A stretch of 64,000 nucleotides of DNA from Closterium sp. NIES-65 (lineage: Eukaryota > Streptophyta > Zygnematophyceae > Desmidiales > Closteriaceae): assembly GCA_948144175.1 (NCBI GenBank), contig CANXME010002563.1:1-64000 (forward strand). Reading direction: 5' to 3'. Below, piece after piece: positions 4,477 through 44,085 of this stretch (positions are counted from its first letter, which is position 1; each line of letters starts with the position of its first letter). The position numbers were made by a program, and so were the translations under genes. The notes beneath the pieces were generated by a model, which saw only the letters and a program-made list of their open reading frames with translations, was not told the DNA's origin and ran no database searches.

Positions 4477-4602
4477 GAGGTGATTGTACTGACAATGTGT
4501 GGTTTTCTATATATTGTTCCAGAGGATGAGTTTTGAGGCGCCTCAAAAGAGGTGATTGTACTGACAATGTGTGGTTTTCTATATATTGTTCCAGAGGATG
4601 AG
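4477..4602. repeat. 54-bp perfect direct repeat around an 18-bp palindrome
   Basis: Bases 4477-4530 are repeated exactly at 4549-4602. Between them is TTTTGAGGCGCCTCAAAA (4531-4548), a perfect palindrome. It lies at the 5' end of the intron of GH30 copy A. The same palindrome arms with other centres occur at several other duplications in this window. Confidence 0.9.
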
Positions 4603-4738
4603 ACTCCCAGTCACACGCTTTCTCCTCCCCACTCAACTTTTCCCTCTCCCTATAACCCCCCACCTCTCCCTTCTTCCCACATCTCCCTTTCCCCCACCTC
4701 ACTCTTCCTACCTTGCCCTTCCCCTACTTCCACCACCC

Positions 4739-5012
4739 GGCTGGGCAACTACATCAGCGGATTCCCCCATTCACCATGTCTCCGTCCCCTCCCCTTCGTT
4801 CCCCCTTTCCCCCCAGGCTGGGCAACTACATCGGCGGGTTCCCCCGCACTCCATCCTTCAGCCTGCGTCCACCCCGTTCCCCCTCTCCTCACCTCCACCC
4901 CAGGCTGGGAAACTACATCGGCGGGTTCCCCCATTCATCCTTTTTCCTTCCCCTCCCCAAAATCCCTCCGCCCACCCCCAGGCTGGGCAACTACATCGGC
5001 GGGTTCCCCCAG
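4739..5012 (+). repeat. Four tandem copies of an intron end plus exon start
   Basis: A segment beginning GGCTGGGCAACTACATC, which is the start of exon 2 of GH30 copy A, occurs at about 4740, 4817, 4904 and 4982, spaced 77, 87 and 78 bp. Each copy is preceded by pyrimidine-rich sequence. The last three carry the AG acceptor; the first has CGG instead. The last copy joins the real exon. The three upstream copies are partial exon relics inside the intron. Confidence 0.9.
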
Positions 5013-6529
5013 GCGGCGATGGACCCTCTGCTGGACCTCATGTTCCTCCCCTCGGGCCTCAACCTCAATATAGTGCGATTCAATATAGGCGGCGGCTCCG
5101 TCCCTCAATACAGCCCTCAGCTATACACTGATTATTCCATGCGCTGGCGAGCCATGCCGGGGTACTGGCCGGCGCAGGCAGCGGGGTTCAACTGGACGGC
5201 GGATTCGAGGCAGCAGGCGGTGCTGCTGGGAGCCAAGGACCGCGCGGTGAACGTGTTCGAGGCGTTTTCCAACAGCCCGCCCTGGTGGATGACCGCGAGT
5301 AAAGACGTCTCAGGGGCAAAGAAGGCGTGGAGGACAAACCTGCTGCGGAGGTTCGAGGGGAAGTTTGCCAAATACCTCGTAAAAGTCGTGGAGGGGTTTG
5401 CGAAAATCCCGGCGCTGGGGAACATTGAATTCGATACGCTGGAGCCGTTTAATGAAGGGCTGGAGGGACAATGGGTGGCCGGGATGGAGCAGGAAGGATG
5501 CAACTTTAACCCACCTGAGATGAGCAGAGTTCTTCTCAAGACTTGGCTGGCTCTGCGGAGAAGGAAGCTCAAGACAAAGCTGGTTGGGGTTGACAGCAAC
5601 GCGGTTTTAACCAGCATAGGGTTACCACTGGTCCTTGGGAATACCTTCCTGCACAGGATCAACGTGCACGGTTACCCTCTGCTGTTACACATGTACATGA
5701 ACGTGACAACTGGACAGGCTAAGTTGTTGACAACTGCGCGTTACACCCAGATGAAGCGGCTTGCCAAATCTCTCCAGAAGGAAGTATGGGTGTCTGAGTC
5801 AGGTCCGTTACTCAGGGATGGTAGTACCTTCGACCTTTCGCTCTACATGATGCGAAACATCGTTGAATCAGTCAACATCCTGGAAGCTTCTGCCTAAAAT
5901 TATTGGCAAATATACGACAGCAGTGACAAGTGGTCAGTGATCAGGATAAACTGGGACCACCCTCCTGGTTACATGGGACCGTTTGAATCTCCTGTGTTGC
6001 AAAAACGGTTTTGGATGCTAAAGCAGTTCACGGATCCGGTGAGGCCTGGGAGCCTGCCGTTGGTGGTGCCGCGGAAGTGCCAGCACACTGTAGCTTCTTT
6101 CTACAGTACGGAGAAAACGGACAGTGAGTGTATTTATAGTGATTCAGAGGGCAGAGGATGCTATGTTTGATGTGAGGCTGACTGGGTTCAAGCTGAATGT
6201 GGGGGGACAAACAGAGGCTGTTCTTCGCAAGACCACGTGGGCAGAGGATATTGTAGTCAGTTCTGCAAATATAGCTTCTAGACCGAGAGTAGTAACTGAT
6301 GTGGTCAGTCTTTCTTATCTGTAACCTTCACATATGTTTTGGAGTAGTAGTAGTGCGGGCTATAGTGCTTACTGAGCACCAGCATACCGTATGTTAATTA
6401 GTCTAGTATGGTATGTCTCTGAAACGGGGCAATCAACCCCTTGAGCCTACACCACGCCTTCCTACCACGTCTCTGAGGAAGGGACAACCAAACCCTTTCG
6501 CCTACACCACACCTACCTACCAAGCCAAA

Positions 6530-8527
6530 TCATATTCTCCTAACGTTGGTAAAATGTACGGAGACAAAGCTTTGCCCCTCAATAGTGATGCTTGCTGTAC
6601 CGCCGCTGCCATCCTGTCTCTGCACCATGTTATGCACCCAGGATGTTCGCCGAACAAACACCTTGGTGATCCCCCTCGAGTTTATCCGGAACCCCTGCAG
6701 ATTCACTGATAACTGTTTCGGCTCCGCCTTTTGATTCACTATAAACAGACTCACTACAGAGTCCGCCTCGTTAAAGAACCCCGCGATGCCGTGAGAGCAT
6801 TCCGCGGGGATTGTAAGCGGCTGGCTTCCAGGCTTCGCGAGACTCGTCAGCATCTTGAATATATACCATCGCTTAGACCGCTTCGGGTTTTTCACTGTAC
6901 CTGAATACCCCGCAGGGTACCACGGGAAGTGGATCATTGTCCAGCGAGGGTCAGAATCGTACGTCAGCCAGTATACGTACGCAGATGCTTGCAGGATGTT
7001 GACGGTCTCGATCACGTTTCGCGCCATGTACAGTGACAGGTCGAATGGTTGTCCGAATCGCCCCATTGGCCCGGATTCGCTTATCCAAACCTCCTTCCCC
7101 ATCCCCTTGGCTATATCGCGCATTTTACTGTACATCTGGGTGGTGTAGCTGACCGGATCCTGGTTACTCGGGGCCGGGTCCATGTACCCATGGACGTTGA
7201 TCCGCTTCACTTCATTTATCCTCGCTATAGAGTTGATCGCCGAAACCGTGTCCTCCGTCCAGCTATCAAACGCGGCGACCTTCGTCTGGAGTCCTTTCTT
7301 TTTCAAAGCGTCTAGAGTACCCCACAGCACACGGGTTATAGCGGGGACGTCGAAATTACACCCCTCCTGCCCGTTCCCCGCGTTCCAGAAGTTTTCCAGC
7401 GGCTCGTTAAACGGCTCCAGCGTATCGAAAGTCAAATTCCAAGCCGGGTCTTTTGCGAACTTCTCCACCACTGTAGTGAGGTAATCCACAAACTTCCCTT
7501 CGTAGCGCGGCTGCAGGTTTGGCTGGTTCTTCTCCGACGCGCCTGCCACGTCACCCGACACAGTCATCCACCACGGCGGGCTGTTTGAAAATGCCTCGAA
7601 AATATTCGCGCCGCGCTCCCTGGCGCCAAACAGAACATTCCTTTGCCGTTGATCCGCGCTCCAATCGTACGGCCCAGCCTCCGCCGGCCAATACCCGGGT
7701 ATGGCCTTCCAGCCAGTCGTCACATCTTTAGAAAACTGCGGACTTAGTGTTTCGTTGTGCCCTCCGCCTATGTTGTAGCGGACGATGTTCAGTCCGAGCC
7801 CTTTCCGGGGGTGGAAGATGAGGTCCAGCAGCGTATCCATGCGATCCTTGGGGAAGCCTCCGATGTAGTTGCCTTGCCTGGTGGATCAAGGGGAGAGATA
7901 ATGTTCAAGCGGGAATGTGAACAATGTGGCATTTTTTTAGATGAAGTCGAAGCATGGAGGGTACTTGGCGAGGGTGGGCGAGCATTGGGGGAGTAGTTTG
8001 ACAAGTGAAGGACTGGGGGGTTAGGAAGAAGGAAGAAGAGAAGAAGAGGAGGGGAGGAGAGGGTGGGGGGAGGGTGCCCGAAGGCGGCGAAAGAATGAGA
8101 GAGGAAGTGGATGCTGAGTAAATGAATGGACTCACCAAGCCAGAGACGTGCCCCATCCCTTCCACCTCGTCCCGATGAAGGAGGGAGTGATATTCAAGCT
8201 GATTGGCCCGGGGAAGCTACAGATGTCGAACAGCTCGTTGACCGGTTGTAGCGACGGCGGCGGGGAGAGCGACTTGGATTCGTCGACGGAAAACAGGCGG
8301 ACGCTCCGGTTGCGCCGTTCGCGCCGCATACGCGCGTGAATGGTGATTTCGTCGAGCGAGTATCGCCCCGCTGCGCCCGCTGTTGATGCCGGGCGGATGC
8401 TGTCGCGATGCAACGCGCGCGCGTGGGCGGCGCTGAAGGAGGAACTCAATAACGCGGACACTATGAACAGCAATGGCAGTGGAGGGGGTCTCCGCCTATA
8501 AAGAGCCGCCCCGGTGCTACTTGCCAT
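6530..8527 (-). CDS. GH30 endo-beta-1,6-galactanase-like protein, copy B
   Basis: Two exons: 8527-8136 and 7877-6530, with a 258-bp GT-AG intron in phase 2 inside the Trp codon of TSLAW. Predicted to be secreted and to cleave beta-1,6-galactan side chains of arabinogalactan (role taken from the GH30 subfamily 5 relatives). ATG 8527 is preferred because it is followed by a clear signal peptide (PLPLLFIVSALLSSSFSAAHARA). After a linker of about 60 residues come SFIGTRWKGWGTSLAW, GLNIVRYNIGGGHN, FEAFSNSPPWWMT, the acid/base Glu in LEPFNE, and the nucleophile Glu in VWISESGP, then a C-terminal beta domain ending SVHFTNVRRI. The frame is intact. It shares intron position and the NYIGGFP motif with broken copy A, and so forms a subgroup separate from the other six, which have FANYVGGLPQ and a different intron. 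There is an NG or NN pair near several loops, consistent with a secreted glycoprotein. Confidence 0.85.
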
Positions 8528-10094
8528 GCTGGAGATGCAGTAGAAAAATCTAGGGTAGAACCCTGACAACAGTTATTCTGTTTTCCTGAAGCACTGTGGA
8601 GGGAGGGAATTCGTGCACAGGTTTGAAGGCTTGAGGCTACAAGGAAGTGCTAGCGTATTCAAAACCGGTCTTGCCGTTTGTCTGAAAGTTTACTTCAAGA
8701 CTAGCCAGAATTCAACAACGAATTCTGTTGTAAGCTCTTGGCAAATATAGACGGCGATCAGCCAGTGTTCGACGCGCCCTATGGTAGATTTGAGAGAATG
8801 ATTTGCATCGGGGACTGCGCGCTTCAAATTCGCGCGTGAGGCGCGATAATACCTTCCGGATTCGATCGAGGGGCGGAAGTAACATGGGTGACACAGAAAG
8901 TACCGACTGCATTCCAAAATTGGGCTCACACTCGACTCACATTCCTACTTTGGGCTCGAAGCGCGACATTTTCCAATTTTTGTGGCTTTGGTCGGGGATC
9001 TCTCCCCAAGCACATGGCGCGCGCAATCTCTCGGGACATTGCGCCACTTTGGTCTGGAGGCGCGGTTCGCCACCTGTCTTCCTACCCAGCTGTCTGTTGA
9101 CCACCTCCCAGGCGGACCACTCCAACGATTATCTGCGACAGTATTTTCCAGGAAATTGACGGTCTTCATATGGCAGAACGATTTGGACGAGTCGCTAAGG
9201 GACAACTTCAGCTGCAATCCAATTAGGCCAGCGCGGTTTGCGAATGCGATCCCCAGAGGAAGAAGCTGAGGGGTCGTTATCTGCCCGCGGTCAGAAAAGT
9301 ATAAACCCCATCTGGATGGCATGCGGTAAGGGGAGCCCCAACCCTAAACACGGGCAGCCGCGTGGTTCTGCCCGAAAAGATCGCATTCGCAAACACGCAC
9401 TGCGAAAATTGGATCGCATTTTAAATTGACCGAGTTGGCAAGCTACATCGTACAGCTCAATAGGTCGCAAACGGGTCCACAGCCGTCACCTGGACGTTTG
9501 AGGCTGAGTGCGATTGGGGGTCGAATGCCACATTGAAGCGGTGCGACCTCATGGAACTCCTCTGACAGGCGATTTCGCTCACTCCTTAGCGGGGATATTC
9601 CGAACGAAACAGTGAGCATTTTCGTTGGCATAAACGAGTGCAACCAGGCTGAATGTTATTGATTTATTTAGCCTTCTTTTCCATACTGTGGCTGTACCAA
9701 CTTGACCAGAAGCAGGCCACAACATAAAGCGTCAGAAAACCAATTCAGGAAATATTAAATCGTACTTCGGATTTAAATAGGAGGTTTAATGTCCTGACGT
9801 GACGGGGTATATGATTGTTCATAATATTATCGTTGTAATAGTGGAAATAACTGGGTTGGTCTCACATGCGTATATACTCACCATCGCCAAGACACAACAG
9901 CGAGTACTACCAAGACCCCACCACACCCCAACCAATGTTCACATGAAGCCTGCACCACATACGGTACTTCCGCATTTTCTGCATACAATGGATGCTCCCA
10001 CGTTCTCGACCAGATATGGTACTAAAACACCTAGCCATTGCTAATCTACGCACGAGCAACTATATTACGTGGAGACCCCGAGTCACTGTCGACT
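8528..10094. other. Intergenic region between divergent GH30 copy B and the AGP-like gene
   Basis: Over 1.5 kb with several short open frames on both strands, none with a recognisable domain, repeat pattern or consistent codon character. It should hold the promoters of both flanking genes, which point away from each other. No RNA gene seen. Confidence 0.4.
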
Positions 10095-10745
10095 ATGGCT
10101 GTCAGTAAAAAAGGCGGGCGCCTGGATTCTGTCGTTAATCATAGCTCTTACCATCGTCCGCCGCCCAACTATGGCTCCCGTAGTAGGATTCGGATACGAG
10201 CCCTTCACGAGACTCTTAGACACTCAATTTGCCAGCGATTTTCCAGCCTGTTGATTCTTTCATGTCTCTTCACATTCGCCCCCTCCTTCACTCTCTGCCA
10301 AAAGATCGACTCGACTAGTAGTTTAGCGGATCTTGCGGAAGGGTCCGTATCCCCTCCAATCCCTTCGCCTGCTCCTGATACCTCGGCCCCAAGCTCAGCA
10401 CCGTATGCAGATATAGATGGTCTCGCCGCCGACAGCAGCAACACAGCTAGCAACGGAGTTGACAATAGCGAGTATTGGTCACCCGCTCCCGCTTCCTTGC
10501 CCGCCACCTCGGACAAGGCGTCTGCGGAGAAAACGGGGGACTTGGGATCTGCCCCTGCGCCGTCGTACACAGGGTCGGAAAGTAGTGGCTCGCTCAGCAG
10601 TGGCGCGATAGTAGCTACAGTGCTTGGAGTTGTTTTTGGAGTATTTATGTTGGTAGTTGTGATATTGGTGGCTGTGGTTCGTGCCAAGAACCACGAGCGA
10701 GCTCGTGCGGTATCTAGAGGTAACTTTGGGGACGTGGACCTTTAG
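10095..10745 (+). CDS. Arabinogalactan-protein-like single-pass membrane protein
   Basis: Single exon of about 216 residues. ATG 10095 is chosen over an upstream non-ATG extension. A basic N-terminal stretch of about 45 residues precedes a hydrophobic signal-like segment (SSLLILSCLFTFAPSFTLC). Then comes an extracellular-type region of about 100 residues rich in Pro, Ala, Ser and Thr, with SPPIPSPAPDTSAPSS, SPAPASLPATS and SAPAPS, the dipeptides on which plants and green algae make hydroxyproline-linked arabinogalactan. A strong transmembrane helix (AIVATVLGVVFGVFMLVVVILVAVV) and a short basic tail (RAKNHERARAV) end the protein. This looks like a type I membrane protein with an AGP-like ectodomain. 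No named family is recognised. It lies among galactanase genes, whose usual substrate is this kind of glycan. The long N-terminal extension before the signal is odd; the true start may be further in. Confidence 0.65.
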   Translation: MAVSKKGGRLDSVVNHSSYHRPPPNYGSRSRIRIRALHETLRHSICQRFSSLLILSCLFTFAPSFTLCQKIDSTSSLADLAEGSVSPPIPSPAPDTSAPSSAPYADIDGLAADSSNTASNGVDNSEYWSPAPASLPATSDKASAEKTGDLGSAPAPSYTGSESSGSLSSGAIVATVLGVVFGVFMLVVVILVAVVRAKNHERARAVSRGNFGDVDL

Positions 10746-10978
10746 CAACGGTATATACTGTAGTGCTCATGCTGCTGCGATTTGTTCCCCTTCTGTAGCA
10801 CCTAAAAGCATTTCCTCTGCAAGTCTTCAAATTTTAATTCATGTGTCATTGATGTTCAGCCAGCTGTTGAAACGAGCCAAATCACGAAAACAATACAAAG
10901 GACCTAACTACCATATTGGCAATGCAGCGTCATACTAACCAAATATTCTAATCAGCATTCGCCACTAAACAGTAAACC

Positions 10979-14496: not shown

Positions 14497-14575
<79 letters not shown>

Positions 14576-14611
14576 TACCTCGCGCACGTTGAACACTTCT
14601 GCCGTCATGGG
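12884..14611. other. 5' flank of GH30 copy C, partly duplicated upstream of copy D
   Basis: No supported gene. The stretch at about 13580-14150 resembles 18100-18530 upstream of copy D: both share a GTCGG-TAATCATGTGC-TGGACAT block, a CGACCAAGGGTCC block, and a block around TCTCGTATTAGGAACA. This shows that the gene was duplicated with its upstream region. Open frames at 13307-13760 are GA/GCGA-rich and look like chance. Confidence 0.5.
14487..14572. repeat. (AC)n microsatellite
   Basis: About 40 dinucleotide AC repeats with one GC interruption near the left end, just upstream of a hAT-like MITE. Confidence 0.97.
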
Positions 14612-15075: not shown

Positions 15076-15083
15076 GTCATGGG

Positions 15084-17627: not shown

Positions 17628-17633
17628 CGTCAT

Positions 17634-18899
17634 ACTAGCTCTAGACGGATGAGTGGGGATCCTTCTGGGAGTTCGACTAGATGATCATGAAAGCTGTTAA
17701 ACCTAGACTGAGCCTGCTTCGCCTGCTTCTAGCAATCACTGTCCTCGAAACGCTTAAGATCGCCTCAAGCGACGAAGTAGCTCCCCGTATGATGGAATCG
17801 CGAATGTGTTTCATTGCTGCTGACTAAAAAACTCAGGAGAACTAGTACACCTACGGGCGGTCAAGAGAACTTGACTTGAAATTCGGATTCTCGACTAGAC
17901 TGCGTGCGTGATCGCTGATCCGGGACGGCACCACCGTCTAGTATCGGCTGGTCCTTACAGGCTGCACTAGTAGATTGTTACAGTAGTCGCGCGACCCGTG
18001 CCAGCCAGAAAGTCGTGACTCTATCAGTGTTGTCGGCCTGCTATAAGAACTCGTGTTATTTGAGCCACCTCAAAAGTCATGTTGCTGCAAGGGACCGCAA
18101 TCGCACAGCAAATTGCAAACGACTGTTCACGCACGGGATGGGGGCCAATGGTCGGATAATCATGTGCATGGACAATGGACATCCATAAAGTGTCTGGTCT
18201 CATCTCTCAATACAAGTAGCCGATTCACCGACCAAGGGTCCCAACTCCAATCCAATCCAAGGGACATCCTTATTATGGTCGAGGGGATCAAGTGGAGTGA
18301 CGCAGAATGGGGGAGGATTTTGCCGTGTGGTGGAATTTGGAAACAAGGGTGAACTTCGAAGGGGCACATTTGCATCATTTCGAGTCGAACCGCACAGGCA
18401 ATGAGCGATTCGGTAACGGTATGCGCAACGAGCGCGTGACATTAACGGCAGCATCTCGTATTAGGAACAGACCAAGGGCTGTTTTTCTTGAGCAGCGAAT
18501 CAGCAACTTCAGTGGCGCGGGAGGGAGAAAGCAACAGATACCAAATACACGGCAGAAGCATTTTGAGCAGTGAAGTCTACACCAATTTCTGAAATTGTAA
18601 GATACTTCACATTTTGAAATCTGTCAGTATCTTCTTCTGCTATCACTGTCTACGTAGGGTAATAGCGGATTTTGGTTGGTGCATGCAGCATAATCGATAA
18701 GTTCTTAGTTTGAGGTGATCAGCTAGTAACCACCTGATCGGCATCAGTATGTCCTACAGAAGGCCACCTATTCATGGAATCCGTGGATGTGCTCAGAAGA
18801 GTTGTCAGATGAGTGGTACAAATAGATAGCACATCCAATCTAAGGAGAGCCCATGACCAAATCAGAAATTCAACCGAATGATGAGCTACCAGGCAAATT
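17634..18899. other. 5' flank of GH30 copy D and 3' flank of copy E
   Basis: No supported gene. About 17640-18060 resembles the region just upstream of copy C (shared CTGCTTCGCCTGCTTCTA word and a GGTCAAGAGAACTT block). An imperfect palindrome TTTGAG-CCAC-CTCAAA lies at about 18058-18073, similar in arms to the junction palindromes elsewhere but without an evident flanking duplication. Confidence 0.45.
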
Positions 18900-20634: not shown

Positions 20635-22462
20635 CGTGCCAGTCGCTGGGTACTACTACGACGAAACTCGTGAGACTGCTCGCAAGCGGTTATTGCGTCG
20701 AAATTTATGTACTAACGGACATTTGTTGCTCGCGGCACGTTCTGCCTGCTATTCGGAAGGCACCTGAACAGAATCCAGCCGCTTGGCCTTCGCTCGTCCC
20801 TCGTTGCTGCAGCCAGAAGCCTGAAGAAAGAAAAGCAGGTCCCTTGGTCCATTCTCGCGTGTTGCGGCTCGAGGGGGTACATAGTGGCGCGTGTTGGGCT
20901 GTTGCAGTTGGAGCCAAGAGTGCATAGTGATAATAACGTGTGGCTGACCCGCGCGGAGCAGATGGAATGGAACCAAGGTTTGACCTGTGCTGGTAGGCAG
21001 AAGTGCCCAAAATAAACAATCCCTACCTGACCATCAAAAACCTGAGCAAGAGCAGATGTCTCATGGTGGGTTTTTTGGTTGCTTTCTGGGGACTTTTGGG
21101 ACCTGCCCAGGGGAGGGAAGAGGGTGGGTAGGGAAATCGGGTTGGTGTTGATGTGATGATGGTGGTGCATTGTCTAACCGCGCGCGATTCGATTCTCCCA
21201 ACATTGGCTTGCTGTAAATCGGCGGATGGCTTGCAGGGCGACGTCTGATTCTCGCACATTTACAGTTCTTGTATCGTGGCTCAGGACGGTTCCGCACGGT
21301 GAAAAGCGTTTTCTAATATATACCGTTTTGCACCGTGACGAAACAAAGTTGACCGCATTGAGCGTGCGGAAATTGTGCAACCTGACATCGCCGTGAGGGA
21401 AGGCGGAGTGGAAGATCGCATATTTGCAAACGAGACGCAAATTTCGTCTATAACGGGGCAAGCAACGAGAGTCAGTTCATAGTGCTTGCAATATGATAAT
21501 GGCCTACAAATTCATAACTTGCTGTGCTTGCTAAACTAAATCATCTGCAACCCCAAGCCTGATTTTCCGTGGGTGCACTACGAGCCCTAATTCGGCAAAA
21601 TGTTTAGATTGGAACTCCTAAAAAGCTTGAACCGTCGTATGTTTGGTGGAGATTACTGCGGGTTCGTTGGATTATTGAATAAGTACGGCAGTGTGGGTTG
21701 GAGTGTGAAAGGGAGGTGGAGATGAGGGAAGGGAAGAGGGGGGTGAGGGTGTTTGAATTAAAACCAGGGTCTGATGTAAGAGAAAGCGTGATCAACTGTA
21801 AAACAAATGAAGCTGAGTCACCATGTTTGAGGTGGCAAAGTCTAGGGGTTGGTTTAGCATTTGACTGTGCGACACCTCCCGTTTTTGCCTGTGATGCAAT
21901 TGCAAAACATTTTTATGGTACATGAGACTGACAGGATGCTCAAACATTTTGCGGGTGTTTTAGCTTTGGCACCGAACCAAATTCCGTGCCTAGATGGTTC
22001 GTACACAAACTGCGATTTGTGTTTCCTTCGCTCCCCTCGTCACACCGCTCGTCATTCTTTCCACCTCGCCAACCAATCCTAACCAGGGTGAAGTCATCAA
22101 CTGCAAAACAAATGATCTACGTGGGACCCTGGGTTTAATGTACCTTATGTATCTCGTATGCATTAGGGAGAGGGCGCAAATGCAAGGTGTTGGGGAAATG
22201 TTAGGAAACTGAGAAGTCCTTGCCTTGTGCAACCTGCTAACTCAGCGCTCCTCATGCAAGCCGTTAACTCAGCGCTCCTCGTGCAAGCTGGCAACTCGGA
22301 CCTCCTTGTGCCAGCTGGTAGCTGAGACCTCCTTGTGGAAGCTCGTAGCTGGGACTTCCTTCTTTGTGTATACTCAGGTATTTCTCTTGGCATTGTATTT
22401 GAGACGCTGTTCAGTCTTTGACATGAACACAACAAACGAGCAAATCACGATGTTTTGCACTT
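20635..22462. other. Intergenic region with a 30-bp minisatellite
   Basis: No supported coding region; open frames around 20705-21170 and 21700-22230 show no domain or signal. At about 22228-22357 there are roughly five diverged tandem copies of a 30-bp unit (CTCCT-GTGCAAGC-G-TAACTCAGCG style). Confidence 0.5.
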
Positions 22463-23307
22463 CTACACTAACTTATTTCCCTTGAGATCAGCCGAGGAGA
22501 GTGAACCACCGCCAACCAGGTCAGTAGTGTCGAATCTCTCTTCTGGCTCAAGCTTTTCGTCCCACGCAAAGCACAGCACTGTAGTGGGGACCCCTGTAGT
22601 GAGGACGAAGGAGAGTACTACATAGGAGAGAAAAGAAATCGCAAAAGAGATAAGGAGTGCGACGACGAGAACCAAGATACCTGATGGGTAGTCAGGATGA
22701 AAGGAGAATGCGTAACAAGCAAAGGGGGCCTGCACACAAGTAGGGGCGACGGGAAAATTGTACGAGAACACGTCTCGAATTCGTGAAAATCGAGAGAGAC
22801 ACGTGGGCAAAATGCTCCGGCGGACAGAGCATGCAACAATGCAAAGTACCGGTACTTACCGCATGTAACAGAGTAATTGCATTTATAATGGGCACAGGAA
22901 CCATGAGCATGACAAGCAGGGCCAGAGCAGCAGCGTTGACTGTCACAATCGGTGCCAAAAAGCGCCAGAAGACGCCGAGAGAGACACACAGCGAGCGGAT
23001 GAAGTCACGGCCGCTCATGGCGGCGGTGGGGAGGACCATGCACTGTAAAAAGTTCTGAATGAAAATCTCAGTGCAGAGAAGCAGCGCCACAAGCAGGCCG
23101 CCCGATACGCCTTGACCAAAGTGAGTTAGGGAGAGGGCGGAGAGAATAAACATGCACGCGGCCATGCTGGTGCTGGTGAGGGCAATGGCGCAGCAGGTGC
23201 CTAGGGATGAGGTGCAAGCGAGGTGGAGAGCTGACTTGAAAAGCTCTAGTTGGCCTCTCAGCGTCACTCCCTGTTCCCCTTCAACCGCCTGCCCGTCCCC
23301 ACTGCTG

Positions 23308-23350
<43 letters not shown>

Positions 23351-24057
23351 GGCTGCGGCTGCTCGTGACGTACAGTCGTGCAAAAACAGCTGCTGTGGAG
23401 TAAGTGAGGAGAGCTGAGAGCACTTGGAGAAAAAAGAGGAAGGTGAGCACCAGGAAGGCCGAAAGTCCGACCTTTGCATCAAGGCGAAAGCAATAAAGCA
23501 AGGGGAGGGCCAGGAACGAAGCTGCAAGCATAACAGGGAGTGGCATAAAGAGGATGACCGGGGACTGGGTGATGGTTGCATGAGCGGCGTGCGCGACAAC
23601 GGAGGCGGCGAGAGGGAGGTGATGACTGCAGCTCTTCACAAGGAGCAACGCAGCGACACTGAGAAGCCCCAGGACGACAAACTCGATGAAAAAGTTGAGA
23701 GGACGGTATGCGAGCTTCAAAACATCTATCAGCAGCAGCGCCGCCTTCCGAAATTGCAGCTCCTCTGGGTCTGAATCGTCGAGCTGCCCTTGCAGCAGTT
23801 GACGGTGGGCAACGGAGTGGGCGGCGCCATTCATCCAGTGGGCGGCGTGGGCAGCGCCGTTCAACCAGTGGGCGGCGTGGATGGCGCGGCGTACCCAGCG
23901 GCCGGCAGCGTGGCGCGCGGTAACAGTTACCTTGGCGTGTGCGACCGTTGTGACCACAGGCAGTGCGAGCTCGAGGAGGCCCCTCTTGGAGTCCCTCGCG
24001 GCCACAGCGCTGCTGCTATCACCGCTAAATTTGCCATTGTTGCTGCTGTCAAATCTT

Positions 24058-24104
<47 letters not shown>

Positions 24105-25247
24105 AGCATCCGATGCTGCTGCGTCTTTAACAGCCTCTGCTGCCATGACACCCCTTTCCACTGATACCCCATCTGTGTTACTGTTAGAGCTACCGTTGAG
24201 AATTCTCAGGATTGACTCCTCCATTGCTGGATCCATGGTCACCCCTTCCACTACCATGCCTCCCTCCTTGATGCCCCTTCCATCATGGCCCTTGTTATTG
24301 AGAATCATGGAATGATGCCACCTTCCAGCATGACGATTAACCCGGCCTCCGTCTTCCTTAGAAAAGGGGTTCTTTTTAACATTCTCAAAAATCATAGTAT
24401 GATGCCACCTTCCAATGTGATTATCATTCTGCCCTCCGGCTTCCTCAGAACCGCGCTCTCCCATTCCTAACCCCTCGGAATTTCCTCCCGCCATAGTGAC
24501 CATCCCGTCGCCGCCTTGGTTCGTCTCGCCGCCTGTTCCCCGCGTTTCCTCTTCCGCGCGGCTTTCCGCGTTCCGCGGCGGGGGAAACGCGAGGAACCGC
24601 AGGGCGGAGCTCGCGCTTCGCAGAGCGCAAATCACGGCGACCAGGAGTATGGCCGTCCTCAGGGCGCGAGCAGAGACTTTTCGGAGACGTGAGACGAGCA
24701 ACACGGGGAGGGGGATGCTGAAGGCGAAGAGGAGGAGAAACACGAGCGGATACAGGAAGAGAGAAAATAGGATTTCTAGGAGGGGGATTGAGGGGCTGAA
24801 GAGCGTGTTAACGAAGGCGAAGAGGCCCACGACGAGGTATACGGCGAGCAGCAAGTAGAGGACGAATCGCCATCCCGCGTCTCGGATGGGGCGTTCGCGG
24901 AGATTGACTATGGCTGACGATTTCTCGAAATCGTTCCAGCAGGCAGCCCCCGTTGGATCGTCGAGGCTTTGATGAGGGATGTGCGGCGTCGCGGCTCTGC
25001 GAGCTTCGACCTGCTCTATCTGCAGTTTGGACGTTAACGTTAGCAGAGGGAAATCGGCCGTGTGGGACGCGAGGTGCTCGGAAACGGTGACCTTGACGCC
25101 TCCGTCGTGCGCCGTCAGACTATTCTCTGCCTGCTCGTAAAATTTCGCGCATTCCGCGGGCTGCGCGTGTTGGAGGAGGGGGGAACCGGAGTCGGAGCTT
25201 TCGGCGAACTCGGAGGGTCCACTCGTTAGTGGGGTTGTCTCACTCAT
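22463..25247 (-). CDS. Multi-pass membrane protein, probably choline-transporter-like (CTL/SLC44/Pns1 type)
   Basis: Two exons: 25247-22860 and 22729-22463, with a 130-bp phase 0 GT-AG intron, about 884 residues. ATG 25247 (MSETTPLTSG) is chosen as a typical cytosolic start. There is a cytosolic N-terminus of about 130 residues, then many hydrophobic segments: FVLYLLLAVYLVVGLFAF, LLEILFSLFLYPLVFLLLFAF, FFIEFVVLGLLSVAALLLV, LPVMLAASFLALPLLYCF, FLVLTFLFFLQVLSALL, AACMFILSAL, ALALLVMLMVPVPIINAI, and in exon 2 GILVLVVALLISFAISFLSY. The last exon ends TTVLCFAWDEKLEP, which resembles the C-terminus of CTL proteins; that is the basis of the call and it is not strong. A large soluble loop of about 300 residues contains two Ser runs from trinucleotide repeats, a duplicated GRWHH(T/S)MI segment and AAHW repeats. 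Confidence 0.5.
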
Positions 25248-26679
25248 TTGGACAGATAGTCTCGTACTAGTACTAGCAATATTGCTGATAATGGCTGCAC
25301 GAACGAGGCTGGTAACAACGGAAGCCAACGCAATTCTGGAGACGCTACGAAACACGCTAGAAGCAAAGATTGTGGTTCGAGTGAGAGGCGCCGTGTGGCT
25401 CGTGTTACAAACAAGCAAGGCTCATTTGAGGTGGAATGGGAAGCCATGGCGGCGAAAAGGCGGGGTGGAAGCCACGGTAGTAGGGAAGAACAGGTGTGGG
25501 AAGTGAAGGTGTGGGAGACTTGGGAAGAAAAGAACAGAACAGATGGTGCGCGTAGTGCAGAGCAGAGAGGGGCGAATTTGAGATGGCGGAGTGGGCGTGG
25601 AAAGTTAAAGCTGATTCGTGGGCGAAAATTGCGACCTTCCAAAGCTGACATGGATGGATTTCGCCGAGCCAAACGTTGTTCGGCTGGCGCATCAGGCACA
25701 GGCTCGGGTACCAGCTACAGCAAAGTGTGCTCCCTAGAAGCTTCTGAGAGAAGCGGACAATTGTTGACTCGGGTCTGGGATCTGCTGACTCGGGTCTGGG
25801 ATAGGCGCATGAGCACCGAAGCGAACTGGGGCATGATGGCAGCCGAACACCCTTTTTGGCCCCAGGTTCGGGAACTGAATGTGCGTTCCCAGAACCCTCC
25901 TCTCCTGGCAAACCGACGCACCACTGATGCGCGCATGGTGCATCCGTGGAGAGCTAGCACCATGCGCGCACCAGCTGATGCGGGGCAGCACCAGCTGGTG
26001 TGGGGCAGAATTAGGTGCCCGCCAAGTTGAACACCCCCCGGGTTTGACTAACTTGACCCACACAATTGCCCGATCTGTAAAAGTCGAACACCTACCGTGT
26101 TTGACAAACTTGACAGACCAATAGAACCAATTTGACAAACCCCAAACCACTTCCTCTCGTTCGAGCACCACACCCGAACCAACCCTGGTACCCAAGCACC
26201 ACCAACGAACCTGTTCTGGTACCCGAGCCTAAACCCTGATGCGCCAGTCGAACAGGGCCAAGTTGTTTCGGACTACACTTGCTTTTGCGATAATTTTGAT
26301 GCAACGCTGGAATGAATTCGCGGATGGCTGGAGACTTCTGAAAATTCTTACTCAATGACTGCTATTGACTGGAAAGGACTCCATGTTAGCATGGAGACAG
26401 AAGATTGTATGAAACAGGTAAGCAAAGAACATCAATTCTTGGTGCTTGTAACGGCAGAATGTTTACAAATGTTTACCTTGCAAATGTTATGTGTTCTATT
26501 GCCACGGCCTGCTTGCGTTATTCTCTGGCGAATGACCCCCTTAAAAACATCAAACCGTTATAAGATCAGTATTGAATGATGAACTAAACTCAGCCATCAG
26601 GATAATGGTACAGGATCATTCAATTCATAATAATGTACAGTATGACCTTTTGAGCCACTGCGGCATCTGGTCTGGATAT
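25248..26679. other. Intergenic region, convergent 3' flank of the flavoprotein gene
   Basis: No gene supported. An open frame at 25395-26030 (+) lacks any recognisable domain. Short local repeats occur, for example TTGACTCGGGTCTGGGAT twice near 25762-25802 and CACCAGCTG-TG-GGGGCAG twice near 25970-26008. Confidence 0.4.
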
Positions 26680-29600
26680 CTAGATGTCAGGTGAGTGCAA
26701 TTTGTTGGCTGCCGCTGCTATGGCAGTTCCTGCAATGTAGCCTCCAGTCCACGCATTCTGGAAGGGGGATTGAAACATTTTAAGGCAAATGGGAAAAAAG
26801 GGGCCTAACGTATTTGGAAAATTAGACAGAGCACGGAATTTCATCGGTGCGGACATTTGTATTCTTGCAAGAACAGCAAGGCCATTCGGACAAAGCTGGT
26901 ACATTTGAAAGCTTCTACACTCAAGTGCATCACCATGCGACAATCAGATGCTCACATGTGTTTGAATGCATTCACATCCGTACACATGCATATGCATGCA
27001 AGCACGCATGGCGCGGAATGCACATCTATGCATGAACGTGAGTGCATATATGCGCGCGCATGGTGTAATGGGCGTATGCACATGCATGCAGATACGCCAT
27101 GTGACTTTTGAGTCGACTCAAAAGTCGCGCGTATGGTGCAATGGGCGTGTGCACATGCATGCAGATATGTCATGCTAAGGCGAGTACACAAATGCCAAGC
27201 ACATTACCTGGAAGTTAAAGCCTCCTGTGATTCCGTCCACGTTCAGTATCTGTGCCACAACGAGGAATCAACAGGAGCGAAACATTTCTCCATGAATTGA
27301 AGAGAGAGAGGTTTCCCTGAGGAGGGTGAGGTGACTTTTGAGGGTTCTGTTGCTCACGTGTTGAAAAGAGACTCTCCATCGTGGTCAGCTTGAGGGACTC
27401 ACCTCGGCTGCAAAGCGTGTAGAAAAGATACCGTGTGACATTATACCGAGCTGACTTTTGAGTCGACTCAAAAGTCAGTTCTGTTGCTCACGTGTTGAAA
27501 AGAGACTCTCCATCGTGGTCAGCTTGAGGGACTCACCTCGGCTGCAAAGCGTGTAGAAAAGATACCGTGTGACATTATACCGAGCTGACTTTTGAGTCGA
27601 CTCAAAAGTCAGTTCTGTTGCTCACGTGTTGAAAAGAGACTCTCCATCGTGGTCAGCTTGAGGGACTCACCTCGGCTGCAAAGAAGAAATTGCAAAGTTT
27701 CGGGATGTATCAAAACTCGATTGAGGAACTCACCTCTCCTGCAAAAAAGAGGTTGCTAAGGAGCCGGCTCTCCATTGTTGCAATATTCACCTTGATGTGT
27801 GACATGGGATGGGGGAGGCAATCGGGAAGAGATGAGGGAGACAGGTGGTGGAAAGGGGAAAGGGGGTTAAAGAGAGTAAAGCAAAGAAGAGGTTGGGAAC
27901 GAAATGACGCTCCATTGTTGTAAGATTGACCTTGATGTGTGACATGGGATGGCAAAGGCAACGGGGGAGATCGGAGAAAGAGGTGGGGAGAGTGGGGAAA
28001 GAGGCAAATATTAGAGTAAAAGCAGAATAGGTGTTGGGAAAATCTTAATTGTGGTGAGATTGGTCTTGAGGTGCGACAAGGGTCAGAAAGGTAAAGGTAA
28101 TAGGGGGCGCAATGAGGGAAGGAAGAGATCTCAAAGCAAAGGGGAAAGGCGAGAAGAGGGTTTTGGGAAGGAATCGGTATGGGATTGAGGGAGAAGAGCG
28201 GACGAACGAGATTGACGCATGGAAGAAGGAAGGAAGGAGGAGGAGAGGGGAGTGGGAGATAGGAATGGGAGAGGGGAATGGGAGAGGGGAATGGGAGAGG
28301 GGAATGGGAGACGGGAATGGGAGACAGGAACTGGGAGGGAATGGGAGAAGAAAAAAATACCTCCTTTAGAGGGACACCACCTGCAGTCACAAATTCATCC
28401 TTAAATCGACCCTGCAGGAAAAGGGAGGAGAGGAGAGGAGAGGGGAGGAGAGGAGAGGAGAGGAGAGGAGAGGAGAGGAGAGGAGAGGAGAGGAGAGGAG
28501 AGGAGAGGAGAGGAGGGGGAGAGGAGAGGAGGGGAGAGGAGAGGAGGGGAGAGTGGAGGAGAGGAGAGGAGAGGAGAGAAAAGGACAGGAAAAGAGGCAG
28601 AAATTTGTCAAAACACATATGATGGAAATTATGATTAGCTCCTCAATCAAACAGCAACATTTTTTTAGGCTCACAAACAGTAGCAAAACAACCATGTTAA
28701 CTGGACGGAACAGAACCGAACTGATTCAGTACAAAACTGAATTGGAATGAATCGAACAAAACTAAAAAATAATATTTAGGGGAGCAAACGCAATCAATCA
28801 GGGGCATCAATAAGGTCTAATTGTGAGGGGCCTAAAAAAATTCACTCATGGTTCTCCTCTCCTCACCTTCCCCGCCACTGCCAGCTCAGCTTTGTGGATG
28901 ACATCAGCAAGGGTGAGCAAATGGGCCTTTGACACGTGGGCCCAGAGGGTCTCTGGATGGATGACCTGTGGAGGTGAAGTGGAGGAGAGGGGAGGGGGGG
29001 GTGAGAGGAGGGAAGGGCGAGGGGGAGAGTTTTGGCAGATGAAGGGGACATAATACTCCTGGCGCCTCTGAAGGTTTTTCAGACGTCTCAGAAGAGTTTT
29101 GAGACGTCTCAGAAGATTTTTGGCAGGTGAAGGGGACATAGTACTCCTGACGCCTCTAAAAGACGACTGGGGTTGGGACGGCGAAGGTGGCGGTCATTGA
29201 TAACGCTTTTGACACGTGTGCCCAGAGGGAACTCTAAAAAAATTGTGGAGCCTACAAGGTGAGTTTTGAGTCGACTCAAAAGTCAATTCGGGAGGGCGAA
29301 GGCAGCGGTCACTGATAACGCTTTTAGACACATGTGTCTGCCCAGAGTAAACTCTGAAAAACGTTCTGGAGCCTACAAGGAAGCAAGGAAAAGGGCTTGC
29401 CGATTGCAAAATTGTTACTCACAGCACGTTCGAGCAGGTAGCACCAGAACCTTCTGGGAAGGTTCAGCTCCACTGGGGCAGTGGTGCCGATTTGTTTTTT
29501 CTGCGAGCGTTAGAGGCGAATGTGAGTGAGTGAGTGAGAGAGTGAGGGAGCGAGTAAGTGAGTGAGGAAGTGAGTGCGTGAGTTAATGAGTGGCGGTTAA

Positions 29601-32600
29601 ACGGCTTGTGCGAGTGTTGGAGGGAGCGAGTGAGTGTGGGTAAGAACATCCAGCAGGGAAGAAAATTGGTTTGTTGAAGGGAACGGAGGGTGGAAGAGTG
29701 AAGTCTCCTATTCTTGTGGAAATCACCTGAAGTGATGATTTGGCAGCAGTGAGTGCAGAGAGGAGAGCAGCAGCGGAGAGATGAGGGGTAAAGTCAGCCA
29801 CTAGTGTTGCTGGTAGGAGGTAAAGAGGGAGGGAGGGAGGGAGGGAGGGAGGGAGGGAGGGAGGGAGGGAGGGAGGGAGGAAAGGGGGAGGGAACAAAGG
29901 TGAGGAGATGAAGCTGTGAGTGCAGTGAGGAGAGCAGCAGCGGAGAGATGAGGGGTAAAGTCAGCCACTAGTGTTGCTGGTAGGAGGGAAAGAGGGAGGG
30001 AGGGAGGGAGGGAGGGAGGGAGGAAAGGGGGAGGGAACAAAGGTGAGGAGATGAAGCTGTGAGTGCAGAGAGGAGAGCAGCAGCGGAGAGATGAGGGGTA
30101 AAGTCAGCCACTAGTGCTGCTGGTAGGAGGGAAAGAGGGAGGGAGGGAGGGAGGGAGGGAGGGAGGGAGGGAGGGAGGGAGGGAGGGAGGGAGGGAGGGA
30201 GGGAGGGAGGAAAGGGGGAGGGAACAAAGGTGAGGAGGTGAAGCTGTGAGTGCAGAGAGGAGAGCAGCAGCAGAGAGATGAGGGGTAAATTTGGCCACTA
30301 TGGTTGCAAGAGGGAGAGAGGGAGGAAAGGAGGGAGACAGAGGGTAAGGGAGGGAGGGAGAGAACAGCAGGAACACATGGGTGAGATAGAGAACAAAAAG
30401 CTTACATAAAGTAGTAGCCAATACAGGAAACCCCTGAGCCTTTCTTGAGCCAGCCATCCCAGCCATCCCAACCCAGCCATCCCAGCCCAGCAACCCCAAC
30501 CCACCAGTGTAGGCAGAGGCGTGCAGGTTCCTAGCAGCCCAGGCTGAGAGTTTAGGCAGAGCTGGACCGCTCACTCCCCAGTGCGTGAAGAGAGGTGGGA
30601 GGAGAGAGACGCACCGGGGGTGAAGGGGAAAGAGGCCCACGCACCCACCACTGCCACCAAAAGCGCACCCACCCACCAGTGTAGGCAGAGGCGTGCAGGT
30701 TCCTGGCAGCCCAGGCAGAGAGTTTCAGCACAGCTGGGCCGCTGAGTCCCCAGTGCGTGAAGAGGAGGGGGACGGGAGAGAGGACTCTCCATCCATCATC
30801 CACCAATGTAACCCCCCCACCCCACCACCAGTGCCACCCACCCACCGTTGTAAGCAGAGGCGTGCAGGTTCCTGGCAGCCAGGGCTGAGAGTTTCAACAC
30901 AGCCGGGCCGCTCAGTCCCCAGTGCGTGAAGAGGAGGGATGAGGGGAGCGGGGTGAGGGGACAGAGGCGCACTTGGGGTGAAGGGAAAGAAACTTATGCG
31001 CCCACTAAAAGGTGCATCCGCCCACCCACCAGTGTAGGCAGAAGCATGCAGGTTCCTGGCAGCCCAGGCAGAGAGTTTCAGCACAGCCGGGCCACTCACT
31101 CCCCAGTGCGTGAAGAGCAACGGCGAGAGGTCAAAGGAGCCCCCACCCACCACCCACCACCCACCAGCGTAACCCCACCAGTGCCACCAACCCACCCACC
31201 ACCCACCAGTGTAACCCCACCGGAGCCACCAACCCACCCACCCACCAGTGTAGGCAGAAGCGTGCAGATTTCTGGCAGCCCAGGCTGAGAGTTTCAGCAC
31301 GGCTGGGCCGCTCACTCCCCAATGCGTGAACAGCAGGGGCCCTCGCTGCGTGAAGGATGATTCCTTGTCCTTTTGCTGCTTGGGCTTGTTTTTAGCAGTG
31401 GTGGCAACGGCGGCAGGAGCAGAAGCAGTGGCAGCGGCAGCATCAGCAGTCTCGGTGGCGGCGGTGGTGGTGGTGGTGGTGGCAGCAGTGGTAGAGGTGA
31501 GGGGGGAAAGGGCGGAGGAGGAGGAAGGGGAGGATGGAACAAGCAGCTTCAGAGACACGTCTTCAAGAGACACCTGGATTGAGGGCATGGAAAGACAAAG
31601 AAAAACATATGCAAGGAGTTAAGGGAAATGGTGGAGGAAGGGGACCTCACTCACTCACTCACTCACTCACTCACTCGCTCACTCACTCACTCACTCGCTC
31701 ACTCACTCACTCACTCACTCAATCGCTCACTCACTCACTCACTCGCTCACTCACTCACCCACTCACTCACTCCCTCACTCACTCACTCACCCCCGCAAGA
31801 GCAGTGAGAGCAGAATCAGGGATGTTGAAAGTGAAGAGAGACGGGCAGGGAGGGATGATGGAGTGACCAAGGGATGATGCCATGTCATGACCCTGCAGTA
31901 GTAGAGAGGGGTGGGGAGAGATGCGAAGGGGTGATGGGGGACGGGGACGGGTGGGAAGGGGTGAAATGGGGTGAAACTGTGAGATGCTTTTGGGGGAGGA
32001 AGGATGGAAGGGCAGGGAGGGATGATGGAGTGACCGAGAGATGCTGCCATGGAATGCCCCTGGGGTTGAGAGGGGTGGGAAGAGGTGAGGAGGAGTGAAG
32101 AGGGGTGAAGAGGGGTGAGGAGGGTTGAGGAAGGGTGAGGAGGAGGGGAGAGTATGGGGCGAGGTTGAGGAGTTATGAGGGGTGATGAGGGTTAATGAGG
32201 ATCGATGAGGGGAGCACAGGAAAGGATGTTGGCAGGATCGTAAGGAAGGCAGAAAAACTTGCTGAAATCAATAAACAACATAAGCATAGATTTGTGGAGA
32301 CCAGAACGAGCTAAGTCTGATGATCTGGGTCGAATCTACTTTTCTCTGCAAAGGGCGAGAAAATTGCTGAAATCAATTAACAACACCGATGACATTCGGA
32401 GATCACCCCAACAAAAAGGTCCAATACCTTGATTGACCCACCGGTGCCGATAAGAACGAAATCAGCCATGAGGGAGAGAGGGGAGGAGGAGGAGGAGGAG
32501 GGAGGGGAAGAGCTATTGATAATCGGTGGAGCCTTTTTGGAGGAGGTGATGAGGAACTGGCCTGCAGGGGTGCGAGCGATGGATGCCACGGGCCAGCCCG

Positions 32601-35600
32601 GGGAGATGGTCACTGGGGGAGGGAAGAGAAGGTGGGAGGAGAATCGGAGGATCGGAAAGAGTGGATCAAGGGATGGAGGGTGAGAGCGTGGGTCAGCAGG
32701 AACTGGTTTGCAGAAGTGCGAGCGATGGATGATACAGGCCAGCCCGGGGAGATGGTCACTGGGGGGAAGGGAGGAGAGGGGAGGGGGAGGAGAGAGGGAG
32801 ATGTTGATGAGTGTGGGAGTCTGCTTGGAGGAGGAGATGAGGGACTGGCCTGCAGGGGTGCGAGTGATGGATGCTACAGGCCAGCCCGGGGAGATGGTCA
32901 CTGGGGGTAAGGGAGGAGAGGGGAGGGGGAGGAGAGAGGGAGATGTTGATGAGTGTGGGAGTCTGCTTGGAGGAGGAGATGAGGGACTGGCCTGCAGGGG
33001 TGCGAGTGATGGATGCTACAGGCCAGCCCGGGGAGATGGTCACTGGAAGGTGGGGGAGGAGGGGTTGAGAAAGAATGGAAAGGAGAAAGGGGATTGAAGT
33101 GGATGGAGTGTGAGAGTGTGGATCAGTAGGAACTGGCCTGCAGGAGTGCGAGCGATGGATGCTACAGGCCAGCCAGGCGAGATGGTCACTTGGGGAGGGG
33201 GATGAGAGGGTGGGTGCGAGGAGAAATGGGAGAGGGCAGAATGAAAGGATAGAAAAGAGGTAGTTGGAGACCAAAGGGTGAGAGGCTAGTACCCCTGCAG
33301 CGTGGACATCCACATGACAATTCACCTGAGAATGTCCCTGAGAGCACCTGAGAATGCACCTGAGAGCACCTGAGAGTGTACCTGAGAGCTGCTGGGCTTG
33401 TGAGAGCAGGCAGTCGATAACTGATTGGGAGGAGTCTGAGACGGGAAACATGCGCCCGTCTGGTTCTGTCTGGCAGGGAAAGAGCAGGGTGGGGTTGATT
33501 GAGAATGGGGAGAAGCGGGAGTGACGGGAGTGGGTGGAGTCAATAACACGGCGCAGGTAGGCGCAGAGCAGGCAGTCAATAACTGACTGGAGGAGCCTGA
33601 CACGGGGAACATGCGCCCGTCTGGGTCCGTCTGCCATGGGGTGTGGGGGGGCGAGGGGGGTGGAGAAATTGAAGGGAGTGTGCGGAAAAGAAGGTGTGAG
33701 GGATAGGTAACTGCAGGCAAACAATAACTGACTGGGAGGAGTCTGACACCGGGGGGAACATGCGCCCGTCTGGGCCAGTCTACCATGGCCCATGGGGGGT
33801 TGAGGGAAGGAGGGCAGTGGCATGGGGTGGGTGGGTGGGCGAGTGACTGAGCGAGACCAGAACCAGCAGTCTTTTTGAGAATTCTCAAAAAAATCCAGCA
33901 GTCAATAACTGACTGGGAGGAGCCTGACACGGGAAACATGCGCCCGTCTGGGCCAGTCTGTCATGGGGATGGGAGGGACTGTAAATAGAGCAGACAGGGA
34001 GCAGGCAGTGACCCTGGGAGCAGCAGCATCCCTAGAAGCACAGACAAAGTGCAGCACAGGCATATGCACGCATACCTTGAGGGGCACCCCTCGTTGGGTG
34101 AACCACTCGACTGTGTCTGCCGGGCCGTGCGTTCACAAGAACAGGCCATGCGCCATGCAGTATCAGGACAAGGCGTGGAGGCACAGACATATGAGAGCAT
34201 ACCTTGAGGGGCACCCCCCGTTGGGTGAACCACTCAACCGTGTCTGCTGGACCGTGCGTGCGGAAGAAGGAGCCTTTGAGCTCCCGATGACCCCTTGGGT
34301 AGTGGGAGGAGAGGTGCTGGGCGGTGGGGATGGGGGCGGAGAAGTTGAGCAGGGGAGAGCAGAAGTGAGGGAGTGACGCACTGTAGTGGGGTGTCGGTCG
34401 GTCAGGCCGTGAGCACTTAGACGGTGTCAGCCGGGCCGCGCGTGCGGAAGAAGGAACCTTTGAGCTCGCGATGGCCCCGTGGGTAGTGGGAGGAGAGGTG
34501 CTGGGAGGGAGGAGGAGAGAGAGAGAGAGGGTTGGGGTTGATAATAGAGACGAAGAGAGCTTTAGGGTTTCGGGTTTAGGGTCGCTCCAAAAGGCCTGCT
34601 GGGTAGGTCTCGTGATGCTAATATAGGTGCTGAGAGGGGGGGAGCGGTTGGGTGTTGACAGGATGTCTGGTTTTTATGAGTCAACTTAGAAACATCTTGA
34701 GCAGCTACTGTTGCCGATGATTGGCGTGTAATTTATAAGGTGCGTGTGACGTGACTCGCGAGAAGGGGCGAGGTGTGGAGACAGAATGAAACACTACATG
34801 CTGCACATCACATGTTACACGTTACATGGAGAGCCATAGGATGGTACACGTTACGGATCACATGGAGAGCACATTGCACCTACTATGGGATCGGCTGCAA
34901 GCCCTGTGATCAGACATTCCAGCGAGCTGCAGTTTCTAAGGAGAAGGTTTTTCTCCTTTGCTAAACCTTCTCCTTGGAAACTGCAGCTCGCTGGAATGTC
35001 TGATCACATGGGGAGCACATTGCACCTACTATGGGGTCGGCTGCAAGCCCTGTGGTGACATTGCAGCGCCCGCCTCCTGATATGCGCACCTGATGCATGA
35101 GAGGAGGCAGGTGGGTTGGGGTATGATACGGCATGAGTCATGGTGCGGTACGGAGTGCGGTGCAGTGCGGTGCTGGGCTGTGCTGTGTTGGCAGGGCGCA
35201 GTACAGATCGTGGTGCGGTGCAGTACTGTGCTGTGTGGTGCTTAATTTCTCCTCATCTTCCCCTCTCCTCCTTCCCCTCCCCCTTCACTTTAACATTCCC
35301 CAGCGGTTGACTCTTCTCCACTACCCGGACCTCCAAGCCAGGCACCATCTCCTCGGCTCGAATCCCACCAACCACTCCCATCCAACCTCCCAGCTCCGCC
35401 CCAGGCCCCTCCCCCTTTCCACTCCCCCTCCCCCATTCCCCCCCTCCCTCCCGCTCCCCTCTACCCTTCCCCTCTTCCCCTCTCCTCTCCGCCCTTCCCT
35501 CTCACCTTCCCCAGAGGCTGACTCTTCTCCACCACTCTGACCTCCAAACCAGGCGCCATCTCCTTGGCTCGAATCGCGCCAAACACGCCCGCCGCCCCTC

Positions 35601-44043: not shown

Positions 44044-44085
<42 letters not shown>

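Follow-up and report, generated by a model that had tools for sequence, protein, structure and literature searches.

Short palindromes with four core sequences at the junctions of local direct duplications in the nuclear genome of Closterium sp. NIES-65

A scan of the 874-Mb assembly of Closterium sp. NIES-65 (874,075,685 bp in 2,400 contigs) revealed 30,327 copies of the palindrome TTTTGAG-N4-CTCAAAA, versus 4 for the reversed control pattern, and at 35 of 43 sites examined in a 264-kb sample the palindrome was flanked by an abutting direct repeat of the local sequence, versus 54 of 400 random positions. The spacer length is fixed at 4 and its sequence nearly so, and the copies fall into four core families, TTTTGAG-TCGA-CTCAAAA and its counterparts with GCGC, ACGT and AATT. 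That the palindromes represent insertions accompanied by a duplication of variable length is well supported. The best explanation, to which we give a probability of about one half, is that the nuclear genome carries about 30,000 copies of short, pre-formed palindromic insertion units that were captured at breaks; how the unit moves is our inference. No description of such an element was recognised in the open-licence literature, including a search by the sequence itself.

The palindromes came to attention in a 64-kb stretch of DNA (positions 1-64000 of contig CANXME010002563.1, here C2265), which is referred to as the window. With up to 2 mismatches, 12 palindrome matches were found in the window, compared with 0.26 expected from 100 shuffles. 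At 4531-4548, the 18-bp palindrome TTTTGAGGCGCCTCAAAA lies between 54-bp direct copies (4477-4530 and 4549-4602) that are identical at 54 of 54 positions; the insert is the palindrome and nothing else, and the boundaries are exact because the bases preceding and following the copies differ. Copies of 49 bp (27053-27101 and 27126-27174, 90% identical) surround TGACTTTTGAGTCGACTCAAAAGT at 27102-27125, copies of 47 bp (29026-29072 and 29114-29160, 89% identical) surround two ACGT-family palindromes in tandem (29076-29093 with 2 mismatches and 29097-29114 with 1), and copies of 85 and 91 bp (29175-29259 and 29290-29380, respectively, 82% identical) surround the 26-bp TGAGTTTTGAGTCGACTCAAAAGTCA, the arms of which differ by one mismatch. 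In the region 27332-27683, a half palindrome TGACTTTTGAG (27332-27342) is followed by three 108-bp units with two 26-bp palindromes TGACTTTTGAGTCGACTCAAAAGTCA between them, so that the units around 27456 and 27590 have a 134-bp period (108 bp plus the 26-bp palindrome); the copies are 100% identical over 27344-27683, the third unit being represented by 72 bp only. Within an older diverged tandem array, 9-bp copies CCAGCAGTC flank TTTTTGAGAATTCTCAAAAA at 33872-33891 (33863-33903 with the copies).

All seven palindromes named in a first-pass annotation of the window were present, six as exact TTTTGAG-N4-CTCAAAA and that at 29097-29114 with one mismatch; the duplication lengths of 54, 134 and 9 bp given there were reproduced, and those given as about 47, about 38 and about 95 bp were revised to 49, 47 and 85/91 bp, respectively. 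Two old events are additional to these seven. The first has 61-bp copies (24303-24363 and 24390-24450, 77% identical) and a decayed palindrome with 2 mismatches at 24373-24390, which overlaps the first base of the right copy. The second (58399-58606) has a 65-bp left copy (58399-58463), a right copy (58550-58606) and a decayed palindrome pair at 58512-58544, including a palindrome with 2 mismatches at 58524, with 48 bp between the left copy and the pair. Two near-matches, at 18058 with 1 mismatch and at 28821 with 2, showed no flank duplication. When a script rule for abutting duplications was applied to the window, 5 of the 7 inverted repeats containing TTTTGAG were positive versus 0 of 19 others, the two misses being 27585, where the right copy is shortened, and 33872, with its 9-bp copies.

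Other features of the window were also recorded. A 129-bp repeat (149-276 and 1205-1333, 98% identical) carries GGGCCTAGGCTACTAAGCCTAGGCCC with TAGTT on either side and resembles a short element with inverted repeats and a 5-bp duplication. A 514-bp direct repeat (38204-38717 and 39007-39520, 100% identical, starts 803 bp apart) adjoins a Copia-type polyprotein frame on the minus strand (39971-44248). Seven GH30-type (PF14587) frames in both orientations form a cluster over 6530-63370, with 66-87% DNA identity between matched stretches; a GH30 frame of the window was up to 76% identical to Closterium proteins, and no palindrome peptide turned up when 120 GH30 relatives were scanned.

The 264 kb used for the flank comparison consisted of the 64-kb window and 200 kb comprising 18 stretches placed on palindrome matches in the first-listed contigs and 20 kb adjoining the window. 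It contained 77 exact sites, which were reduced to 43 by removing neighbours within 160 bp and sites near ends. A site was counted as duplicated when an abutting, non-simple direct repeat with a score of at least 12 lay within 140 bp of it, and the null consisted of 400 positions drawn at random, none closer than 250 bp to a palindrome site; an earlier null, with 35 of 200 positive and many positions in simple repeats or arrays, was superseded by this one. The background of 54/400 is high because the DNA is minisatellite-rich. The 35 duplications spanned 12-112 aligned columns with a median of 41, as measured within the 140-bp flank; since 140-200 bp per side were examined, longer duplications are clipped or overlooked. 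Four of the eight sites that failed the rule do have a duplication by eye, short or compound (L257:5821 with a doubled palindrome, L263:3287 with 11 bp, L267:2018, and window 33873 with 9 bp), and at L259:4012 a palindrome without any flank duplication was found.

Duplication as a general property of inverted repeats was rejected, as other inverted repeats had abutting duplications in only 0 of 19 cases in the window and 4 of 37 in the 264 kb. The first-pass annotation had placed the palindromes at the junctions of local duplications and called for a genome-wide scan with inspection of the flanks; the flank comparison in the 264 kb bears out the placement, well beyond chance. It was also noticed that an unrelated 104-bp hairpin with 32-bp perfect outer arms lies between direct copies of about 42-50 bp at window 34856-35068, a layout like that of the palindromes; such cases are not above background (4/37, 264 kb). 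In 84 kb unselected for palindromes, 8 of 29 local two-copy duplications hold the core with up to 3 mismatches, as do 3 of the 7 with 90% identity or more; the 21 without a core indicate either that other origins also occur or that the core has decayed beyond recognition.

Palindrome decay was found to track the divergence of the copies. Among 48 sites with up to 4 mismatches and a duplication, the number of palindrome mismatches was negatively correlated with flank identity (rho -0.51, p 0.0002), median identity being 94% at zero mismatches (range 62-100%) and 67% at four. This agreement argues for a common origin, which predicts that old events stand alongside fresh ones, as they do here, and it argues against an artefact.

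The assembly scan gave 13,080 copies with a TCGA centre, 5,851 with GCGC, 5,047 with ACGT and 2,601 with AATT, together 26,579 of the 30,327; the remaining 3,748 are one pooled figure, the other 12 self-complementary centres not being counted singly. In the 264 kb, the centre was TCGA, GCGC, ACGT or AATT at 73 of the 77 exact sites and one base away from one of these at the remaining 4. Spacers of 0-3 bases gave 119 matches genome-wide (control 23) and spacers of 5-12 bases gave 386 (control 42), several of the latter, among those listed, being an intact four-base core beside another arm; in the 264 kb, all spacers of 0-30 except 4 yielded three matches, two of them compound. Because the centre is fixed in length and nearly in sequence, the palindrome is regarded as a pre-formed unit of four families. 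The first-pass annotation had taken the changing but always symmetric centre as a sign that an end was copied or joined to itself, and had argued that a fixed inserted sequence would keep its centre. Repeated end-to-end joining should give many centres of 3, 5 or 6 bases and a wide variety of centre sequences, and that reading is therefore not supported; a TTTTGAGNN end joined end-to-end at every event was rejected, since the spacer is fixed at 4. Each family does keep its own centre, and the palindromes look like four fixed inserts. From the mechanism proposed there, the widely staggered break with fill-in is kept and the self-copying or self-joining of an end at each event is given up.

By eye, 28 clusters were counted among the first 50 places of the listed TCGA matches, from which perhaps 17,000 separate loci may be estimated, the rest of the copies lying in tandem arrays that, among the listed matches, are mostly evenly spaced (37, 42, 53, 55, 63, 77, 78 bp etc.). 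In a control pattern scan of prokaryote and viral contigs, the centre was self-complementary in 8 of 239 sites among the matches listed, and a strong nearby flank repeat was present at 2 of the best 15 listed sites; the 24-bp form of the palindrome had no match in the viral contigs. Tandem arrays of copy plus palindrome units are frequent. At L272:3208-4215 (C2265:67208-68215), 19 positions at 55-bp spacing include 16 with the exact ACGT palindrome, and this array is a minisatellite built on the palindrome unit. A period-19 tandem array with GGTGACTTTTGAGTCT among the matches listed for the Closterium assembly (G000, C531:237079-237854) is a half palindrome turned satellite. Arrays with periods of 24 and 20 bp at L261:8160-8490 and 9340-9500, respectively, consist of half or altered GCGC palindromes.

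Half-sites were examined for longer relatives, and no longer element bearing these arms as its ends was met in the 264 kb or in the genome-wide half-site listing. In the 264 kb, TTTTGAGTC without a full partner was found 25 times, all but about 4 (by eye) preceding remains of the other arm. Genome-wide, GGTGACTTTTGAGTC with A, C or T as the next base occurred 454 times (180 forward, 274 reverse); among the matches listed, these comprised one large array and otherwise mostly G-to-A changes, and a single such locus that was cut out proved to be an altered palindrome. For the data covered, the view of the arms as ends of a longer element was rejected, lone half-sites being mostly decayed palindromes.

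Insert anatomy was studied in 29 events hand-picked from the duplication-bearing sites, arrays and unclear boundaries being left out. The inserts between the copies were 18-36 bp, with arms cut at differing points on the left and right and, in some, an unexplained one-sided stretch of up to about 13 bases; no motif was seen by eye where the duplicated stretches begin and end. Outer arms of TCGA units are fragments of GAGGTGAC...GTCACCTC that stop at varied points, and both GGTGAC arms are retained in 613 of the 13,080 copies. Outer-arm length seems to reach about 8 bp for TCGA units and about 17 bp for ACGT units; the longer ACGT arms are best visible in a perfect 52-bp palindrome at L271:7603, with similar left arms at L254, L265, L270 and L272. 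Symmetric outer arms at L265:5378 and L261:7291 fit no family consensus. One identical 23-bp insert was present at two unrelated loci, L259:1299 and L260:5337, with duplications of 60 and 23 bp, respectively. The arm was an exact consensus piece at 25 of 36 junctions, and these showed 21 nt of microhomology, whereas shuffled flanks averaged 9.3 (P 0.0006) and random flanks 8.8 (P 0.0045); the consensus used in this test was itself derived from these data, and the other 11 junctions were excluded.

Comparison with paralogues revealed that the L259:4012 region has a 72% paralogue at window 21755-22100 without the palindrome, by which an insertion (or loss) is shown at this locus, but not a duplication. 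In L258, a palindrome-free copy of the repeated unit lies upstream, and at L258:6156-6215 two different palindromes have nearly the same duplication starts; such shared boundaries are not predicted by independent random breaks. At L265:5615, the right copy, by eye, begins at the centre of an older decayed palindrome within the left copy, which looks as if the older palindrome had served as the break point. A 908-aa frame on the minus strand (window 22692-25418) is related to Closterium proteins with PF04515, which we take to be choline-transporter-like; the decayed palindrome at 24373 is read in frame and encodes FENVKK, with an HxGRWHHxMI repeat on each side. Both copies and the palindrome are absent from the annotated proteins of four relatives of this frame in Closterium, but the loop is poorly aligned and may be intronic, so that 24373 does not provide a clean empty site; none was seen for a duplicated locus among the paralogues or these proteins.

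On the capture reading, a pair of nicks, one per strand and separated by about 10 to 110 bp, would produce a chromosome break with long complementary overhangs, and this break would capture a free palindromic unit. Fill-in of the overhangs would copy the stretch between the nicks and give the direct duplication, and the trimmed unit would be joined between the filled ends, often via 1-3 bases of microhomology. The unit may be double-stranded DNA, folded single-stranded DNA or a reverse-transcribed hairpin RNA. In our view, a widely staggered break with fill-in is the most economical route to duplications of 9-112 bp. According to reports on mouse and human cells, 3′ overhang fill-in and end joining lead to tandem duplications (PMC8355091; PMC5730883), and the second of these refers as well to adjacent nicks and to studies in Arabidopsis and rice. 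Fill-in duplications of this kind (53BP1-Shieldin-CST-Pol alpha; plant adjacent nicks) are described as tens-of-bases direct copies spanning most of the overhang, formed by end joining (PMC8355091, PMC5730883). The Closterium copies are likewise adjacent, variable in length and without a target motif by eye in the 29 events, but their junctions hold a recurrent insert, with four cores at 26,579 places. To our knowledge, no fixed sequence occurs at overhang fill-in junctions. Against capture, neither a free unit nor an enzyme was found. Capture by itself gives no reason for about 30,000 captures of one sequence, and something must therefore supply or attract the unit.

Among the alternatives, target-primed reverse transcription is possible though unlikely. 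A LINE-type enzyme would nick the target and copy a tiny hairpin RNA; loosely placed second nicks would make the duplications variable, and pairing between the target end and the RNA would account for the microhomology. Variable-length duplications and end microhomology are usual in LINE-type insertion and were both observed here, the inserts are cut variably on both sides, and a Copia retroelement frame is present in the window. However, unlike LINEs and SINEs, the 29 inserts have no 3′ tail, no body and no consistent polarity, their ends being alike, and at 30-50 nt the RNA would be unusually short.

A template switch in replication or in end-joining repair, by which the growing strand copies a palindrome at another locus, returns upstream and re-copies the local stretch, is judged unlikely. 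It would account for the microhomology at the junctions, repeated rounds would yield arrays, and templated inserts are reported as a known repair outcome (PMC5730883); however, donor flank should then often extend further, whereas the inserts end inside or just past the arms (18-36 bp, 29 events).

We consider it rather improbable that the palindrome is a minimal inverted-repeat transposon, that is, two terminal repeats with an empty interior moved by a transposase that makes long variable duplications. The discrete unit, the families, the trimmed copies and the thousands of loci would fit, but known cut-and-paste families make short fixed duplications, whereas those found here are 9-112 bp; moreover, no longer element was met in the 264 kb, and half-sites mostly keep remains of the other arm. 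MITEs and DNA-transposon introners are similar in being non-coding inverted repeats between direct repeats, and target duplications of 3-9 bp are reported for some introner families (PMC9860276). The Closterium palindromes differ from both in the 9-112-bp duplications and an interior of only four bases: no fixed short target-site duplication was seen (35 duplications, 12-112 columns), nor terminal inverted repeats around an interior (spacer 4, others rare up to 12), and at 18-36 bp the inserts appear too small to be introns.

Yeast GC clusters, double-hairpin elements and REPs are short, palindromic, dispersed and present in many copies in organelle or bacterial genomes, whereas the Closterium palindromes are nuclear, number about 30,000 and have long variable duplications. 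Hairpin opening in hAT transposition and V(D)J recombination leaves palindromes whose sequence comes from the adjoining flank and varies between loci, whereas the Closterium core is constant.

It is highly unlikely that tandem duplications pre-exist and attract the palindrome, or that the palindrome later duplicates its neighbourhood. This order of events would agree with the two families in one repeated unit at L258:6156-6215, the position of window 33873 inside an older array, the half palindrome preceding the first copy at 27332 and the commonness of palindrome-holding arrays; against it, the palindrome of the 54-bp case sits precisely between the copies and is missing from both outer borders, and palindrome decay agrees with copy divergence. 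A library or assembly artefact is hardly conceivable: a constant palindrome between identical copies looks like an adaptor junction, but flank identity ranges over 62-100% with matching palindrome decay, there are four centres, and a paralogue differs by the palindrome. For related strains, the published assemblies are described as combining long and short reads (PMC10407611). Telomere-like addition and homing-endonuclease sites were also considered but set aside.

A more far-reaching reading, somewhat less likely than not, is a new class of mobile DNA, in which an ultrashort palindrome without an interior would itself be the mobile unit, would have reached about 30,000 copies through machinery producing widely staggered breaks and would seed a two-copy minisatellite at each insertion. 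If true, no smaller interspersed element would be known to us from eukaryotes, and the palindrome would systematically create local duplications. Testable matters are the origin of long tandem duplications and an insertion unit no larger than its own palindrome. Gene copy number is reported to differ widely among Closterium strains, several of which have been sequenced (PMC10407611); the process may therefore be datable and trackable across strains. On the capture reading, each insertion would be a two-copy minisatellite seed, and many would have grown into arrays; if this is right, one recurrent type of event would account for a sizeable share of the short duplications and minisatellites in this genome.
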